DNA from: Methanolobus sediminis
GTDB lineage: Archaea; Halobacteriota; Methanosarcinia; Methanosarcinales; Methanosarcinaceae
Assembly: GCF_031312595.1 (NCBI RefSeq)
Contig: NZ_CP133592.1
Coordinates: 124,001 to 188,000, forward strand
Reading direction: 5' to 3'
Length of the DNA: 64,000 bases
The notes under the pieces are model-generated. The model did not search any database. It was not told the origin of the DNA and saw only the letters and a list, made by a program, of their open reading frames with translations. Position 1 is the first letter of the stretch. Each line of letters starts with the position of its first letter. Of this stretch, positions 19,161-26,010 are shown in pieces. A program made the translations under genes and the position numbers.

Positions 19161-19256
19161 GGGCCTGTAGGGTAGCCAGGATATCCTGATGGGCTTCGAT
19201 GTGACCTTCTGGTCCGAAGATACCCATCGACTCGTGTTCGAATCGCGGCAGGCCCG
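19161..19256 (+). tRNA. tRNA-Arg (anticodon UCG) with a 22-base anticodon-loop intron
   Basis: Acceptor strands GGGCCTG (19161-19167) and CAGGCCC (19249-19255) pair fully, with discriminator G at 19256. The D arm lies near 19170-19187, the T arm has TTCGAAT as its loop, and the anticodon stem ATGGG/CCCAT closes a loop with CTTCGA, placing TCG at 19196-19198. Bases 19200-19221 form an insert after position 37 that folds with the exon into a bulge-helix-bulge: helix CTTC/GAAG with 3-base bulges GAT and ATA. That is the canonical splice motif for archaeal tRNA endonuclease. No CCA is encoded. A T-rich tail follows. Confidence 0.8.
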
Positions 19257-19500: not shown

Positions 19501-20586
19501 ATGAAAGTAAAAAATGGTACATTACTCCTCATTTTTATGGTTCTGCTGGCTGTTACTGCATGCGGGTGCATGGAACAGACAAGTGCAGAACAGGTACAGG
19601 ATACTACAAATAGCACGGTGAAAATCACGGATATGCTTGGCAGGGAACTAACGGTACCCGAAGATATCACATCGGTTTACGCCACATCTCCTCCTTCTAC
19701 GATTCTTGTTTACATGCTTGCACCTGAAAAAGTCGCAGGCTGGAATTTTCTTAACACTTTTAATCACACATTGATGAACGATGAATACCTCAATTTGCCA
19801 ATTCTTGGCGGGTGGTTCGGCACACAGACAGGAAATTACGAGACGATTATCAATATTCATCCTGACATCGTTATGGAAGGATACACAACCGACGGTCAGA
19901 TTGATGAAGCAATCGAGCGCAGACAGGGATCTTTTGGAAATATTCCGGTTGTAGCCGTTGATGATTCGATTATTTTTGTAGAACAGTCAGACCCTACAAT
20001 TGAATACGTAGGAAAACTCCTTGATTGTGAAGAGCAGGCTACTGACTTCATAAACTTCAGAGCCGGGGTCCTTGATGAAATTGAAAGCAAGGTCGCTGAT
20101 ATTCCAGACGATGAAAAGGTAAGAGTCTACTATGCAGAAGGAACAAAGGGACTTGCCACAGACCCATCGGGATCACAGCATTCACAGGTAATCGATATCT
20201 GTGGCGGTATAAATGTTGCTAACTGCTCACTTACCCCTGGAAACGGAATGACGCCAGTATCCATTGAACAGGTAATAGAATGGAATCCGGAGGTTATCCT
20301 CACATCAAATGCCCAGTTCTACAATACAGTTTACTCCGATCCACTCTGGGAGAACATCGACGCTGTACAGAATGAGCGTGTTTACCTGTCACCACTAAAT
20401 CCATTCTGCTGGATAGACAGGCCACAGGGACCACATCTCATTATCGGAACCGCGTGGACGGCCACAGTATTGTATCCAGATCTTTTCGAAGATATGGATA
20501 TGGAACAGACTACACGTGATTTCTATTCACAGTTCCTGCATTATGATCTTACAGACGAGGAACTTGAATCACTGCTGAATCCTTAA
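19501..20586 (+). CDS. ABC transporter substrate-binding lipoprotein (iron-complex/cobalamin type), copy 1
   Basis: The 361-residue protein has a signal peptide and a lipobox-like Cys (VTACGC, about 20-23), then a periplasmic-binding fold of the FecB/BtuF class: VKITDMLGRELTVP, NIHPDIVMEG, and the C-terminal signature VYLSPLNPFCWIDRP followed by a long backbone helix. Such receptors bind iron chelates, cobalamin or other metal complexes at the outer face of the membrane. A near-paralogue follows, then a methyltransferase, a radical-SAM protein, permease and ATPase. A hairpin after the stop may limit read-through, giving this receptor a higher dose. A CAGGTG ribosome site precedes the ATG. Confidence 0.88.
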   Translation: MKVKNGTLLLIFMVLLAVTACGCMEQTSAEQVQDTTNSTVKITDMLGRELTVPEDITSVYATSPPSTILVYMLAPEKVAGWNFLNTFNHTLMNDEYLNLPILGGWFGTQTGNYETIINIHPDIVMEGYTTDGQIDEAIERRQGSFGNIPVVAVDDSIIFVEQSDPTIEYVGKLLDCEEQATDFINFRAGVLDEIESKVADIPDDEKVRVYYAEGTKGLATDPSGSQHSQVIDICGGINVANCSLTPGNGMTPVSIEQVIEWNPEVILTSNAQFYNTVYSDPLWENIDAVQNERVYLSPLNPFCWIDRPQGPHLIIGTAWTATVLYPDLFEDMDMEQTTRDFYSQFLHYDLTDEELESLLNP

Positions 20587-20605
20587 CCGGATTCAAAAAA
20601 TAATA

Positions 20606-20641
20606 AGCACAGGTATTCGCACAAACCTTCCTGCCTGTGCT
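20606..20641 (+). terminator. Hairpin between the two receptor genes
   Basis: AGCACAGG (20606-20613) and CCTGTGCT (20634-20641) form an 8-bp stem around a 20-base loop, followed by a TTTATTTAAT tract. It lies inside an otherwise continuous operon and probably acts as a partial terminator or mRNA-stabilising structure between receptor copies 1 and 2. Confidence 0.55.
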
Positions 20642-20674
20642 TTATTTAATATAGAACAAAAGGTGGTGAAAAAA

Positions 20675-21799
20675 ATGGATAAGAAATTCTATCCAGGTAT
20701 TTCCTTAGGTATTTTTTTATTAATTCTTATTTTAGCAACTGCGATCAGCGGTTGCACTGACCAGACACAGCAATCCATAGTCCAGCAAGAAGAAACGGCA
20801 GAGACAGTAGAAATAACCGATATGTTGGGCAGAAACCTTACAGTGCCTTCTGAAATAGATAGCCTTGTAACCTCAACAGGCCCTTATTCCATACTGGTTT
20901 ACATGCTTGCACCTGAAAAACTTGCAGGCTGGAATACATTTACTCCTGTAGACCATATGCTTATGGATGAGCGGTATACATCCCTTCCCGTAGTTGGTTC
21001 ATGGGGAAGTGCCCAGACAGCAAACTATGAAACTGTCATTGGTCTTAATCCTGAAATTGTTATTGAAGGATACACCGTAAGCAAAAACGGACAGATAAGC
21101 GAACAGGTTACTGAAAGACAGGAGAAATTCGGAAGTATTCCTGTGGTTGCTATCAATGGTTCCATTATTGCCGTAGCCGATGGAGATGACACTATAGAAT
21201 ATCTGGGTCAACTGCTGGATTGTGAAGAGAAGGCAACTGAGTTCATCAATTTCAGGTCATCTGTCCTCAATGACATACAAGATAAAGTAAGCGACATCCC
21301 GAATGATGAAAAGGTACGTGTATATTATGCAGAAGGTTCAACCGGTCTTAAAACCGACCCTGCCGGTTCATTGCATTCTGAAGTAATCACCATATGTGGC
21401 GGTATTAATGTTGCAGACTGCCAGGTCACACCAGGAATGGGAATGACACCTGTATCTATTGAACAGGTAGCTGAATGGGACCCAGCGGTCATACTTACAA
21501 CAGATTCCGAGTTCTACAACTCCGTTTATTCCGATCCGTTATGGACAAATATTGATGCTGTGCAGAACAAGCGTGTATATCTTGCACCACAAAATCCCTT
21601 CTGCTGGATAGACAGGCCATACGGTGTACACCGCGTGATAGGAGCTGCATGGACAGCCAACGTACTCTATCCGGAACTGTTCTCAGACACTGAACTTGAA
21701 GAACTGACGACCGAATTCTATTCGAAATTCTTCCATTATGACCTCAGTGAGGAAGAACTGGACAATTTGTTGCACCCTGAAACGGAGGCATCAGCATGA
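20675..21799 (+). CDS. ABC transporter substrate-binding lipoprotein (iron-complex/cobalamin type), copy 2
   Basis: This paralogue of the preceding receptor is clearly similar along its whole length (ITDMLGR, LVYMLAPEKLAGWN, VRVYYAEGS, NPFCWIDRP). A signal peptide ends at a lipobox-like ISGC. I choose the ATG at 20675, with AGGTGGTGA as ribosome site; GTG codons at 20663 and 20666 are in frame but overlap that site. The last codons overlap the methyltransferase gene by 4 bases, so translation is coupled. Two receptors for one permease suggest either two related ligands or receptor heteromers. The ligand is not evident from sequence. Confidence 0.87.
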   Translation: MDKKFYPGISLGIFLLILILATAISGCTDQTQQSIVQQEETAETVEITDMLGRNLTVPSEIDSLVTSTGPYSILVYMLAPEKLAGWNTFTPVDHMLMDERYTSLPVVGSWGSAQTANYETVIGLNPEIVIEGYTVSKNGQISEQVTERQEKFGSIPVVAINGSIIAVADGDDTIEYLGQLLDCEEKATEFINFRSSVLNDIQDKVSDIPNDEKVRVYYAEGSTGLKTDPAGSLHSEVITICGGINVADCQVTPGMGMTPVSIEQVAEWDPAVILTTDSEFYNSVYSDPLWTNIDAVQNKRVYLAPQNPFCWIDRPYGVHRVIGAAWTANVLYPELFSDTELEELTTEFYSKFFHYDLSEEELDNLLHPETEASA

Positions 21800-22413
21800 G
21801 TACGGATGAAAAGTTAGGAAATTTCCCGGATATAGCAGAGAACGTATTTGCTCCCATATATCCCGTTATAGCTTCAGATATTGCTGCTTCCAGTGGTATA
21901 AAAGAAGGTATTTGCCTTGACCTTGGATGTGGAATCGCATCCCTTGGCATTGCTTTTGCAGAACAGACGGAACTTATGGTCTATGCTGTAGACATCTCCG
22001 AGAAAATGCATGAGCTGTCAATTGAAAAAGCAGCCAGACACGGTGTTTCTGACAGGCTGGAACCTGTGCTTGCAGATGTACATAAACTTCCATTTGATGA
22101 TGACTTTGCAAATCTCATAGTGAGCCGTGGCTCTGTTTTCTTCTGGGATGATCTTCCTGTTGCCTTCAGTGAAATTGCCAGAGTGCTTGCTCCCGGAGGT
22201 GAAGCCTGGATAGGTGGTGGTTTTGGTACCGCTGAGCTTCGCCAGCAGATAGCAAAAACAATGGAAGCACGTGCTCCTGACTGGCAGGAAGGTTCTAAAA
22301 AAAGGCTCAGCCCGGAGAACAAGCAGGCAATGAAAAATGCCTGCTTCACCACAGGACTGCTATTTAGAGTTGTAGATGATGATGCTGGTTTCTGGATAGT
22401 AATGAACAAATAG
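21796..22413 (+). CDS. Class I SAM-dependent methyltransferase
   Basis: The 205-residue soluble protein has a standard SAM-binding motif I (CLDLGCGIASLGIAF), an acidic residue after strand 2 (YAVDISEKM) and motif IV/post-motif segments (LPFDDDFANLIVSRGSVFFW, IARVLAPGGEAWIGGG) of the UbiE-like small-molecule group. It sits between two metal-complex receptors and a radical-SAM protein, with a 4-base overlap upstream and a 19-base gap downstream, so it probably modifies the ligand carried by the transporter or a product of the radical-SAM protein. The substrate is unknown. GGAGG precedes the ATG. Confidence 0.85.
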   Translation: MSTDEKLGNFPDIAENVFAPIYPVIASDIAASSGIKEGICLDLGCGIASLGIAFAEQTELMVYAVDISEKMHELSIEKAARHGVSDRLEPVLADVHKLPFDDDFANLIVSRGSVFFWDDLPVAFSEIARVLAPGGEAWIGGGFGTAELRQQIAKTMEARAPDWQEGSKKRLSPENKQAMKNACFTTGLLFRVVDDDAGFWIVMNK

Positions 22414-22432
22414 AGAGAAAGGAGGCAAAAAA

Positions 22433-24205
22433 ATGAAATGCAAGATATGTGAAATGGCTTGTGATATCAACGAGCATAGTACCGGCAGATGCAAAACCTA
22501 CCAGCTTGACGGTGACAAAATAATCCAGGACCCTGATCTTGGCTATCTGGGAGCGTTTCCTGTTTCAATAGAGACAATTCCTATGCTCCACTACTATCCT
22601 GCAGGAAAATTCCTTCAGGTTTTCAGCACAGGCTGTAATTTTCAGTGTCCGGGATGTATTGCAAGACTGCTGGCTACAAGAAAATCACTTGGATGGCAAA
22701 CCCTAAGTCCTGACCAGGTTATTGAAACCGCACTAAAACTTGGATGCAAGGGAATTGCTTCCACACTCAATGAACCTGCTGCAAATTTTTATATGTTCCG
22801 TGAACTGGCACTTAAAGCCAGGGAAAAAGGCCTCCTTGTTGGTTGTTCCTCTAACTGCTACTTTACGGAAGAAACTATTGAAGAACTTGCCCGGTTTGTC
22901 AATTTCATGAATGTAGGTATAAAGGGATATTCTGATGATGCTTACAGGAATTGTGGAGTCCTGTCCTCCAAACCAGTATTTCGTAATATAGCGAAATTAC
23001 ATCGGATGGGAGTACACGTTGAGGTCTCAGCGGTCTACTTAAAAGGAAACGAAGAAGACGTAATCCAGGTTGCCAGAAACCTTGCAAACATATCAACATC
23101 AATTCCTTTGCAACTCATGAGATTCATTCCCTTCGGTGATGCACCGATAACCCTTGAACCTTCCATTGGTGCATCAGAAAGACTGTGCAACAGCCTGCAT
23201 GACCATCTGGAACATGTGTACCTCTTCAACTCTCCCGGTACTGGATTAATGCACACTTATTGTCCTGAATGCGGTGAAATCGTTACAGAGAGAGAGTTCT
23301 ACGGACCTATGGGTTCCAGGCTTCTTAAACCATGGAGCAATTACACCTGTAAGTGTGGCCACGATATTCCGGTCACAGGTACAGGGGCCATTGAGAGTTT
23401 CAGTGAATCAGGATTTATGGGCGGATACAGGATAAGCCGTGCTTTTGGAATGGTTCATGCTGTTCTTACATGCCTGGGAATTCCCGAAGAGGAAAGGATG
23501 CTTGAAGTATGGAAGGAAATTTCCAGCTCAGAAGTACTCATGGACATTCACCATATGATACAGAACCCGACCTCATATCTGGAATATATCAGATTGATCG
23601 CTGACAAGGCAGGTGTACAGGAGAAAGGTGAAGACCTTATATCATTCATCAGCAAGCGTCTGGAGCTGATTGAAAAGGTAGCCTTGGAAAATGATGGAGG
23701 AAGCGCATACTACTGTATGGGTTCACCGCTCTTTGCATTGAACGCCGGAAGAATGGAAAACAATCTTGTTAATTTTGCCGGAGGACGGAGTATCAACAAG
23801 TTGCTTCAGAAAGAAGGTAAGCCTGGTTTCAATGTCAATCCGGGATTTATCAACGACAATAACCCAAAAACGATATTTATCTCCGGTTTTCTTTCCCGTC
23901 CGCTGTATGAGTTCTATGGTCTCTGCAAGTATTACGGAATTGAAGCGGATGCAGTAAAGCAGCAGAGGATCTATGCGCTTCCACCCTCGTGGGATTTTGG
24001 AAGTCCTCGCTGGATACTCGGTCTTCTTTACATAGCAGATAAACTGTATCCGGGTAAACTGGAAATAGACATTGAGCAGGAAGCAAATACGTTCTACATA
24101 CGCTACTACGGCATCTATTACACTGATGCAAAGCCTAACAGGTCTTTCCACAGGCCATCCTCAGGAATCTGGCCTAGGGAAGTTGCGGGGTGCACTCATG
24201 CCTGA
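22433..24205 (+). CDS. Radical-SAM protein with C-terminal receptor-like (FecB/BtuF-type) domain
   Basis: The 590-residue protein lacks a signal peptide. Order: an N-terminal cysteine cluster (C3, C6, C10, C20); a radical-SAM domain with the cluster motif CNFQCPGC (C68, C72, C75), related in pattern to pyruvate-formate-lyase-activase-like enzymes; a zinc-ribbon-like pair CPECG...CKCG (about 278-315); a helical linker; and a C-terminal part (about 425-580) that looks like the second lobe of iron-complex/cobalamin receptors (NPKTIFISGFLSRPLYEFY, IYALPPSWDFGSPRWILG, then a long helix with LLYIADKLYP). This recalls the NPFCWIDRP region of the two receptors upstream. It may bind the imported complex in the cytosol and act on it. 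The fusion is an inference from motif spacing. GGAGG precedes the ATG. Confidence 0.75.
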   Translation: MKCKICEMACDINEHSTGRCKTYQLDGDKIIQDPDLGYLGAFPVSIETIPMLHYYPAGKFLQVFSTGCNFQCPGCIARLLATRKSLGWQTLSPDQVIETALKLGCKGIASTLNEPAANFYMFRELALKAREKGLLVGCSSNCYFTEETIEELARFVNFMNVGIKGYSDDAYRNCGVLSSKPVFRNIAKLHRMGVHVEVSAVYLKGNEEDVIQVARNLANISTSIPLQLMRFIPFGDAPITLEPSIGASERLCNSLHDHLEHVYLFNSPGTGLMHTYCPECGEIVTEREFYGPMGSRLLKPWSNYTCKCGHDIPVTGTGAIESFSESGFMGGYRISRAFGMVHAVLTCLGIPEEERMLEVWKEISSSEVLMDIHHMIQNPTSYLEYIRLIADKAGVQEKGEDLISFISKRLELIEKVALENDGGSAYYCMGSPLFALNAGRMENNLVNFAGGRSINKLLQKEGKPGFNVNPGFINDNNPKTIFISGFLSRPLYEFYGLCKYYGIEADAVKQQRIYALPPSWDFGSPRWILGLLYIADKLYPGKLEIDIEQEANTFYIRYYGIYYTDAKPNRSFHRPSSGIWPREVAGCTHA

Positions 24206-25217
24206 TTACAGGCGATGGGCCACCATTTCAATTTATTTGCTTCCAATATTGCTGTTAGTTGCTTCACTCTTTGTTGGCAGGTACCAGATGCCGGCGCCAC
24301 TTATAGTTGCTGACATAGTAAATACAATAATCTCCTTCATATCGGGAACTGCAAGCCCGATGTCCACACAGCATACTGTACTTTTCAGTGTAAGGTTACC
24401 AAGAATACTTGCAGCTTTGCTTGTCGGCTCATCACTTTCACTTGCAGGAGTATCATTTCAGGGTGTTTTCCGGAACCCTCTGGTATCACCTTATATTCTT
24501 GGAGTGGGCGCCGGTGCAGGTTTTGGTGCATGTCTTGGAATTCTGCTCTGGGACAGCCAGCTTGCAATCCAACTGCTGTCATTTGCCTGCGGGCTGATAG
24601 CAATGTTTGGTGCGATCAGTATGGGCAAGGTCAGCAAAGGAACAGGGACTCTTGTATTTGTTCTCTCGGGAATAATCGTAGGTTCGATATTTACAGCCCT
24701 GATATCACTTGCAAAATACGTGGCTGATCCTTATGATGACCTGCCGGAAATTGTTTTCTGGCTCATGGGGAGTTTATCTTCGATCAGATATAACGACCTG
24801 CTCTGGATCATTGTACCGATGCTCCTGGGAACTTTGGTACTTTTCCTCCTGAGGTGGCGTATTAACATTCTTTCACTGGGGGATGAAGAAGCACGTTCCC
24901 TTGGTGTGAACGTTGACCAGATACGTTTGATAATAATTATCTGTGCCACCCTTATCACATCAGCTGCTGTGAGTATCAGCGGCGTTATCGGATGGGTGGG
25001 ACTTGTGGTACCGCATATTGCAAGGATGATCGTAGGTCCGAATTACAACCGGCTTTTGCCAATGAGCATGGTGATTGGTGCATCATTCATGCTTCTGGTA
25101 GATGACCTTGCTAGAACTGTAACTGCAACTGAGATACCGCTGGGAATAATCACTTCCCTGCTTGGTGCACCGTTATTCGCATATCTTCTCAAAAGGGGGC
25201 GTATGGGATGGAATTAG
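24198..25217 (+). CDS. FecCD-type ABC transporter permease
   Basis: The 339-residue protein has about nine to ten hydrophobic helices and the FecCD/BtuC family motifs: VRLPRILAALLVGSSLSLAG near residue 65, FRNPLVSPYILGVGAGA, and the C-terminal GWVGLVVPHIARMIVG with the ATPase-coupling segment before LPMSMVIGASFMLLVDDLART. The usual family length is 320-350. A longer frame opens at 24072 inside the radical-SAM gene, but the ATG at 24198 gives the normal N-terminus and overlaps the upstream stop by 8 bases. It moves the metal complex delivered by the receptors. Confidence 0.92.
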   Translation: MPDYRRWATISIYLLPILLLVASLFVGRYQMPAPLIVADIVNTIISFISGTASPMSTQHTVLFSVRLPRILAALLVGSSLSLAGVSFQGVFRNPLVSPYILGVGAGAGFGACLGILLWDSQLAIQLLSFACGLIAMFGAISMGKVSKGTGTLVFVLSGIIVGSIFTALISLAKYVADPYDDLPEIVFWLMGSLSSIRYNDLLWIIVPMLLGTLVLFLLRWRINILSLGDEEARSLGVNVDQIRLIIIICATLITSAAVSISGVIGWVGLVVPHIARMIVGPNYNRLLPMSMVIGASFMLLVDDLARTVTATEIPLGIITSLLGAPLFAYLLKRGRMGWN

Positions 25218-26002
25218 AATTAATCTTAGAAGTAGATTCACTGGCATATTCGTATGGTAAAGGATCCGTCTTTGAGGATGTATCGTTTTCAATGGGAAGC
25301 GGAGAAGTAATGTGCGTACTCGGACCCAATGGAGTGGGTAAGTCCACTCTGATCAAATGTATTGCAGGTATTTTCAAACCTGCTGCAGGTTCTGTCCGCA
25401 TACAGGGGGAGGATACTCAAACAATGACTTCAGGGTCTATTGCAAAGAAAGTCGGATATGTACCACAACAGAGCGAGACTGTTTTCCCATTCGATGTACT
25501 TGACTTTGTGGTTATGGGACGAACACCTCATCTTTCAATCTTCGGTTCACCCGGAGAGGAAGATATGGAAATCGCATGGAAATCCCTCGAAACTGTCGGT
25601 GTTGAGCATCTTTCTGAAAGGACATTGAACAGTCTCAGCGGCGGACAGCGGCAGATGGTGCTTATCGCCCGTGCCCTTGCACAGGAACCTGCACTTCTTT
25701 TACTGGACGAGCCAACTGCTCACCTTGATTTTGGAAATCAGGTGCTGGTTCTTGAAACCGTTCAGAAACTCGCATCATCAGGAATGTCAATTGTTATGAA
25801 CACCCATATGCCAGACCATGCTTTCCTGGTAGGCAGCAATGCTGTTGCTCTGACAGGTGGTAAGCTGCTTGCCTGCGGACCGGTCCCATCGGTTGTGAAC
25901 AGTCAGATAATGTCATCGGTCTATGGCATAGATGTCACTGTAAGAGACATAACCGACATTAACAGAAAAGTCTGTGTCCCATGTGGAAGTGGAAAGTGCT
26001 GA
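25208..26002 (+). CDS. ABC transporter ATP-binding protein (FepC/BtuD type)
   Basis: The 264-residue ATPase has Walker A GPNGVGKST, Q-loop region VGYVPQQSE, signature LSGGQRQ, Walker B LLLLDEP and a switch His in MNTHMPDHA. It overlaps the permease gene by 10 bases, completing the importer. Unusually, the protein ends in a cysteine-rich tail (VCVPCGSGKC, three Cys in ten residues), which is not part of the ATPase fold and could bind metal. A hairpin terminator overlaps the stop. Confidence 0.92.
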   Translation: MELELILEVDSLAYSYGKGSVFEDVSFSMGSGEVMCVLGPNGVGKSTLIKCIAGIFKPAAGSVRIQGEDTQTMTSGSIAKKVGYVPQQSETVFPFDVLDFVVMGRTPHLSIFGSPGEEDMEIAWKSLETVGVEHLSERTLNSLSGGQRQMVLIARALAQEPALLLLDEPTAHLDFGNQVLVLETVQKLASSGMSIVMNTHMPDHAFLVGSNAVALTGGKLLACGPVPSVVNSQIMSSVYGIDVTVRDITDINRKVCVPCGSGKC

Positions 26003-26010
26003 TACTTTCC
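25991..26010 (+). terminator. Terminator of the metal-complex uptake operon
   Basis: GGAAAGT-GCTGAT-ACTTTCC is a perfect 7-bp stem with a 6-base loop that includes the ATPase stop codon, followed by GCTTTT. It marks the end of the six-gene operon. Confidence 0.6.

Follow-up and report, generated by a model that had tools for sequence, protein, structure and literature searches.

A probable molybdenum-regulated, MolABC-type importer operon of Methanolobus sediminis that encloses a methyltransferase and a radical-SAM protein with a receptor-type lobe

A six-gene operon of M. sediminis, located in the 64,000-nucleotide stretch of DNA analyzed here (the window), combines an ABC importer with a SAM-dependent methyltransferase and a radical-SAM protein, designated RS (Table 1). 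The six genes are a real, conserved uptake-plus-modification unit and not a chance arrangement. No description of this gene set was found in the literature, and the operon is probably an undescribed variant of the MolABC-type importers. On balance, we favor a reading in which a molybdenum/tungsten importer of this type is controlled by a ModE-type box, while RS and the methyltransferase act on a small ligand of the metal. Support is good for the importer and its regulation, whereas the role of the enzymes is an inference.

Table 1. Features of the six-gene operon, in positions of the window
Feature	Position	Strand	Remarks
Palindromic operator TTGTGTT-TGTCAG-AACATAA	19447..19466	+	ModE-type box, 1 mismatch to TTATGTT-N6-AACATAA
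Receptor 1, lipoprotein substrate-binding protein, class III, MolA-like	19501..20586	+	Peripla_BP_2, E 2.8e-20
Receptor 2, lipoprotein substrate-binding protein, paralogue of receptor 1	20663..21799	+	Peripla_BP_2, E 1.2e-21
Class I SAM-dependent methyltransferase	21796..22413	+	Methyltransf_11, E 2.5e-18
Radical-SAM protein RS	22433..24205	+	Residues ~1-317 AmmeMemoRadiSam-like; ~377-580 receptor C-terminal lobe by alignment
FecCD/BtuC-type permease	24198..25217	+	FecCD, E 3.9e-90
ABC ATPase with C-terminal Cys tail	25208..26002	+	ABC_tran, E 6.9e-35
Weak terminator-like hairpin over the last stop codon	25991..26010	+	Read by eye

The genes all lie on the + strand and three of their five junctions overlap, in agreement with the earlier note, which had described six overlapping or closely spaced genes on one strand. 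The methyltransferase gene begins within the end of the receptor 2 gene (4 nt overlap), the ATPase gene overlaps the permease gene by 10 nt, and the ATG of the permease (24198) overlaps the stop codon of RS, the listed open reading frame start (24072) being an upstream TTG. A terminator had also been described at the end of the operon; a hairpin (GGAAAGT/ACTTTCC, 7 bp, followed by GCTTTT) is visible there by eye, but it is weak, and the terminator scan scored no + strand terminator at 25991-26010. The Cys-rich tail noted for the ATPase, VCVPCGSGKC, is likewise present, yet only R-x-[VI]-C-x-P is kept across relatives, and CGSGKC occurs in Methanolobus alone and varies even there. The tail was dropped as a functional hallmark, as a single Cys-Pro motif is conserved and the rest is mostly lineage noise. 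With the methyltransferase, no NCBIfam equivalog was matched at or above its cut-off. A tRNA-Ile (GAT) gene (window 19161-19256) lies between a TauE-family gene and the operon.

When upstream regions were aligned, the palindrome TTATGTT-N6-AACATAA emerged; in Methanolobus and Methanosarcina it stands about 32-35 bp ahead of the first receptor gene (34 bp in the window). The copy in the window has a TATA-like element, CTTTTTATA, just before it and occupies the expected transcription start. The whole 2.8 Mb genome contains four sites with no more than one mismatch, all 34-84 bp upstream of genes. One belongs to the six-gene operon, two precede modABC operons (at 61 and 84 bp), and the fourth lies 52 bp before an S-layer gene. 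A control palindrome also gave 4 sites (4 vs 4), so that the count in its own genome was discarded as evidence, and only the location and conservation of the box carry weight. Across 57 loci (956 kb), the box occurs 28 times vs 0 for a reversed-arm control. In relatives, it precedes modABC, fmdEFA (molybdenum formylmethanofuran dehydrogenase), and vnfH, and it also occurs between anfH and the adjacent RS duplicate described below, and before a FecCD permease-ATPase pair next to modABC. Upstream regions of Methanomicrobiales had no shared palindrome, and most copies there had no matching box. One ModA encoded by the boxed modABC operons scores well above its NCBIfam cut-off. A ModE-like protein of M. 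sediminis combines an HTH with a Mop domain (Mop 62.7 vs a cut-off of 55; ModE_repress E 5e-17, 61.7 bits vs a cut-off of 98.5) and is predicted to bind the box of the six-gene operon. ModE controls modABC in Methanosarcinales and also has an effect on the different nitrogenases (PMC9765008). Because the box is common to modABC, fmd, and nitrogenase genes, and a ModE-like regulator is present, the operon is most likely a molybdenum-starvation operon, and its regulation by molybdenum is very probable. Some of these boxes may already be listed among the archaeal ModE sites reportedly collected by Studholme and Pau (2003; cited in PMC9765008). The S-layer (PF07752) gene of M. sediminis (L134:3945-5213, G000:C1) has a perfect copy of the box (L134:3873), and in a relative, an S-layer gene directly behind the six-gene operon (L068:10878-12164) has its own perfect box.

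RS, which had been taken for a plain radical-SAM protein, reads by sequence comparison as a two-domain fusion. It contains a Radical_SAM domain (PF04055, E 1.9e-16), and residues 1-312 match the AmmeMemoRadiSam model TIGR04337 (E 4.5e-26, 91.5 bits vs a cut-off of 220), from which RS differs by the added receptor lobe. The CxxxCxxC motif (C68/C72/C75) is invariant in 56 of 56 proteins, as are many further Cys residues. RS itself has additional Cys at positions 3, 6, 10, 20 and 277, 280, 306, 308. The C-terminal part of RS has a sub-threshold Peripla_BP_2 match and a weak match to the solved binding protein 4hn9. When compared with the operon receptors using hhalign, residues ~377-580 align to the C-terminal lobe of receptor 1 (prob 99.8, E 3.5e-29). 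Within this region, W520, D521, R526, and W527 are invariant in the 48 main-group RS proteins, and their loop occupies the position of the conserved W-x-D-R-P of the receptors. By these alignments, RS is a radical-SAM enzyme that ends, over its last ~200 residues, in a C-terminal lobe from the receptors' own family. No signal peptide was seen in RS by eye, and half a receptor would therefore sit in the cytoplasm on a radical-SAM enzyme. The fusion has so far no Pfam or NCBIfam annotation. Structure prediction from three near-identical sequences reached a mean pLDDT of only 36.9. A shorter RS paralogue without the receptor lobe is encoded as a separate gene in the M. sediminis genome. A divergent RS group (34-36% identity; L055-L060, L043:7657-9384, L061:9415-11142) is without the W-D-R receptor loop and is mostly not linked to a transporter.

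Conservation of the unit was assessed in 393 Halobacteriota genomes, which yielded 56 full-length RS loci from Methanosarcina, Methanolobus, and other Halobacteriota. The distribution of full-length RS is patchy (its main copy occurs, for example, in 7 of 20 sampled Methanolobus genomes and in 9 of 16 from Methanosarcina). Of the 56 loci, 47 have a methyltransferase gene no more than 4 kb from RS, 42 a receptor gene, 37 an ATPase gene, and 34 a permease gene, and all four partner types are present in 34; near relatives are among these loci, so the counts do not represent independent events. The presence of the methyltransferase and RS genes inside an ABC operon, pointed out in the earlier note, recurs in dozens of genomes, and the two genes are not missing from orthologous operons. 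The RS-methyltransferase pair is kept together between distant families (RS identity 43-48%), and the pairwise distance matrices of five operon proteins correlate with r 0.79-0.97, as expected of a co-inherited unit. When genome contigs were searched with RS, no more than two close loci came up, both from Methanolobus, with close matches in Methanolobus vulcani, and searches of plasmids found no full-length relative of RS and no relative of the methyltransferase. Methanomicrobiales-type copies (L041, L048, L054) have extra neighbors, namely DUF364/DUF4213 (putative heavy-metal chelation) and more methyltransferases.

Methanosarcina offers a second setting for RS. AnfG/VnfG is present in 7 of the 393 genomes, four of them from Methanosarcina; an RS duplicate (RS2) occurs in precisely these four and in no other Methanosarcina sampled. 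The duplicate is divergent to nifH and lies near VnfDGK/AnfDGK (L036, L037, L038, L092), with AnfO too in one locus; L037 also has a receptor (65%), a permease, and an ATPase. RS2 forms a single, Methanosarcina-specific clade that is sister to the Methanosarcina RS (support 100/98). The other three genomes with AnfG/VnfG have no full-length RS, indicating that RS is not required for alternative nitrogenases.

The position of RS2 beside alternative nitrogenase genes, the RS-methyltransferase pairs that have no linked transporter (L050-L052, L063, L089, L090), and the cytoplasmic location of the receptor lobe of RS would all suit a plain molybdate/tungstate importer in which RS and the methyltransferase serve assembly or delivery in the cytoplasm, as a module that modifies, for example, a metal-accepting pterin or protein and involves no uptake ligand. 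However, families of cofactor assembly gave no match, and the pair is tightly linked in operons to receptor and permease in most genomes; such a module is, in our estimation, unlikely.

The nature of the cargo was approached through the receptors; no Peripla_BP_2 protein other than these two was found in the 2.8 Mb genome. Their solved-structure matches include 4pag (E 1e-54 for receptor 1 and 1e-50 for receptor 2) and MolA HI_1472 (3psa/3psh; E 2.5e-24 and 3e-24, respectively). The likeness to MolA is distant; it is nevertheless the best PDB match of known ligand, with 4pag and 4ovk ranking higher. The ligands of MolA are molybdate and tungstate, and MolBC-A belongs to the type II importers (PMC4031551). 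Against the BtuF model, the receptors score 32.2 and 28.3 bits (cut-off 234), and their scores with haem-receptor models are far below the cut-offs.

A search of plasmids gave the nearest bacterial relatives of the receptors at about 31-36% identity, and eleven such places (33-35%) were inspected, a small sample entirely from Alphaproteobacteria. Most are accompanied by a permease and an ATPase, and in 7 of the 11, molybdenum genes adjoin the importer: MsrPQ in two Azospirillum; ModA in A. ramasamyi, Indioceanicola, and Shinella; a gephyrin-like molybdotransferase (MoeA) in Rhizobium and Shinella; and Mop/TOBE proteins in Rhizobium, Indioceanicola, Shinella, and Ensifer. In one Shinella (L115), the neighboring receptor reads as a true MolA. 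The remaining four places have TrmO only (Paroceanicella), a TonB receptor with DUF2478 (a second Shinella), or none of these. TrmO (TsaA), another SAM methyltransferase adjoining a Mo-type importer, recurs beside MolA-like importers of Alphaproteobacteria (L110, L112, L114, L167). The TonB-dependent receptor beside the MolA-like importer of Shinella (L169:8959-11229) hints that the cargo may be a chelate and not free oxyanion.

From the MolA similarity, the operator, and the bacterial gene neighbors, it is likely that the cargo is molybdenum or tungsten (or vanadium). One point against this is that classical modABC operons are already encoded in the M. sediminis genome, so that an additional molybdenum importer would not be strictly needed. 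The earlier note had instead proposed import of a corrinoid, tetrapyrrole, or iron chelate, in which case the two enzymes could remodel or open the ring. Radical-SAM opening of haem is known from ChuW/HutW, the best NCBIfam matches of the permease are of the BtuC and FecCD types, and, the operon receptors being the only Peripla_BP_2 proteins, the genome has no other BtuCDF-like receptor. However, the BtuF structure match (E 8e-4) is far outranked by that of MolA (2.5e-24), the BtuF and haem-receptor models are far under their cut-offs, the operator is common to modABC, fmd, and vnf/anf, and the bacterial relatives lie beside molybdenum genes. The cargo proposed in the earlier note is thus most likely wrong, and import of a corrinoid or haem-like compound is improbable.

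Among known systems, MolABC of Haemophilus influenzae (HI1470-1472) likewise has a class III receptor, a FecCD-type permease, and a FecE-type ATPase. The six-gene operon differs in being archaeal and in having two receptors and a ModE-type box, and we know of no methyltransferase or radical-SAM gene in MolABC. BtuCDF and FecBCDE have a permease and ATPase of the same superfamily, but the receptors here are much closer to MolA, and the regulation and neighbors are of the molybdenum type and not of the cobalamin or iron type. As for the enzymes, the FeGP-cofactor genes HcgA/HmdB (radical SAM) and HcgC (methyltransferase) build a small metal-binding ligand and, to our knowledge, include no importer. 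They also combine radical-SAM and methyltransferase chemistry, although their radical-SAM subfamily is other than that of RS and the comparison is an analogy only.

According to the favored reading, a ModE-like repressor would sit on the box at the transcription start when molybdenum is plentiful, keeping the operon off, and upon molybdenum scarcity the operon would be turned on together with modABC. Cargo caught by the two surface lipoprotein receptors would then be handed on to the FecCD permease and its ATPase, as family-level evidence suggests, with molybdenum or tungsten entering as the oxyanion or possibly as a complex. In the cytoplasm, RS may grip the same cargo, or its ligand, via its receptor C-lobe, and RS and the methyltransferase could either build a ligand (a molybdo/tungstophore) or modify one to free the metal. 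A role for RS as a metal sensor or allosteric permease regulator, and not an enzyme, could draw on the receptor C-lobe of a cytoplasmic protein and the conserved Cys clusters, but is highly improbable: none of the 56 proteins departs from the CxxxCxxC motif or from many other Cys positions, and a dedicated methyltransferase is co-conserved. That RS and the methyltransferase act on a metal ligand is a tentative proposal; it is preferred because it is hard to see what a radical-SAM enzyme and a methyltransferase would do to a bare oxyanion, and because a parallel boxed operon has an HmdB-like radical-SAM enzyme in the place of RS. This second operon, in a Methanolobus relative (L166:5234-9697, G202:C20; box at L163:2073), encodes a receptor, the HmdB-like protein (TIGR03957 E 2.5e-44, below the cut-off), a FecCD permease, and an ATPase, as if different radical-SAM enzymes served the same role in boxed importer operons. 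In Methanosarcina, RS2 might play this part next to the alternative nitrogenases, where the metal could be vanadium. The fullest version of this proposal, which we offer as speculation, is that RS and the methyltransferase make or break an as yet unknown archaeal Mo/W/V-binding small molecule that RS holds via its receptor half, such that the operon would couple synthesis or unloading to import and RS2 would serve the alternative nitrogenases.

Methanogenesis and nitrogen fixation depend on Mo and W, and sulfidic habitats offer little of either metal. A conserved ModE-box importer with its own RS-methyltransferase module suggests that methanogens chemically alter the metal or its ligand as they take it up, a step for which plain molybdate import has no need. 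The fusion of half a receptor to a radical-SAM enzyme would give a concrete handle on the substrate of RS, and genomes of Methanosarcina, for which genetic tools exist, also encode the system.
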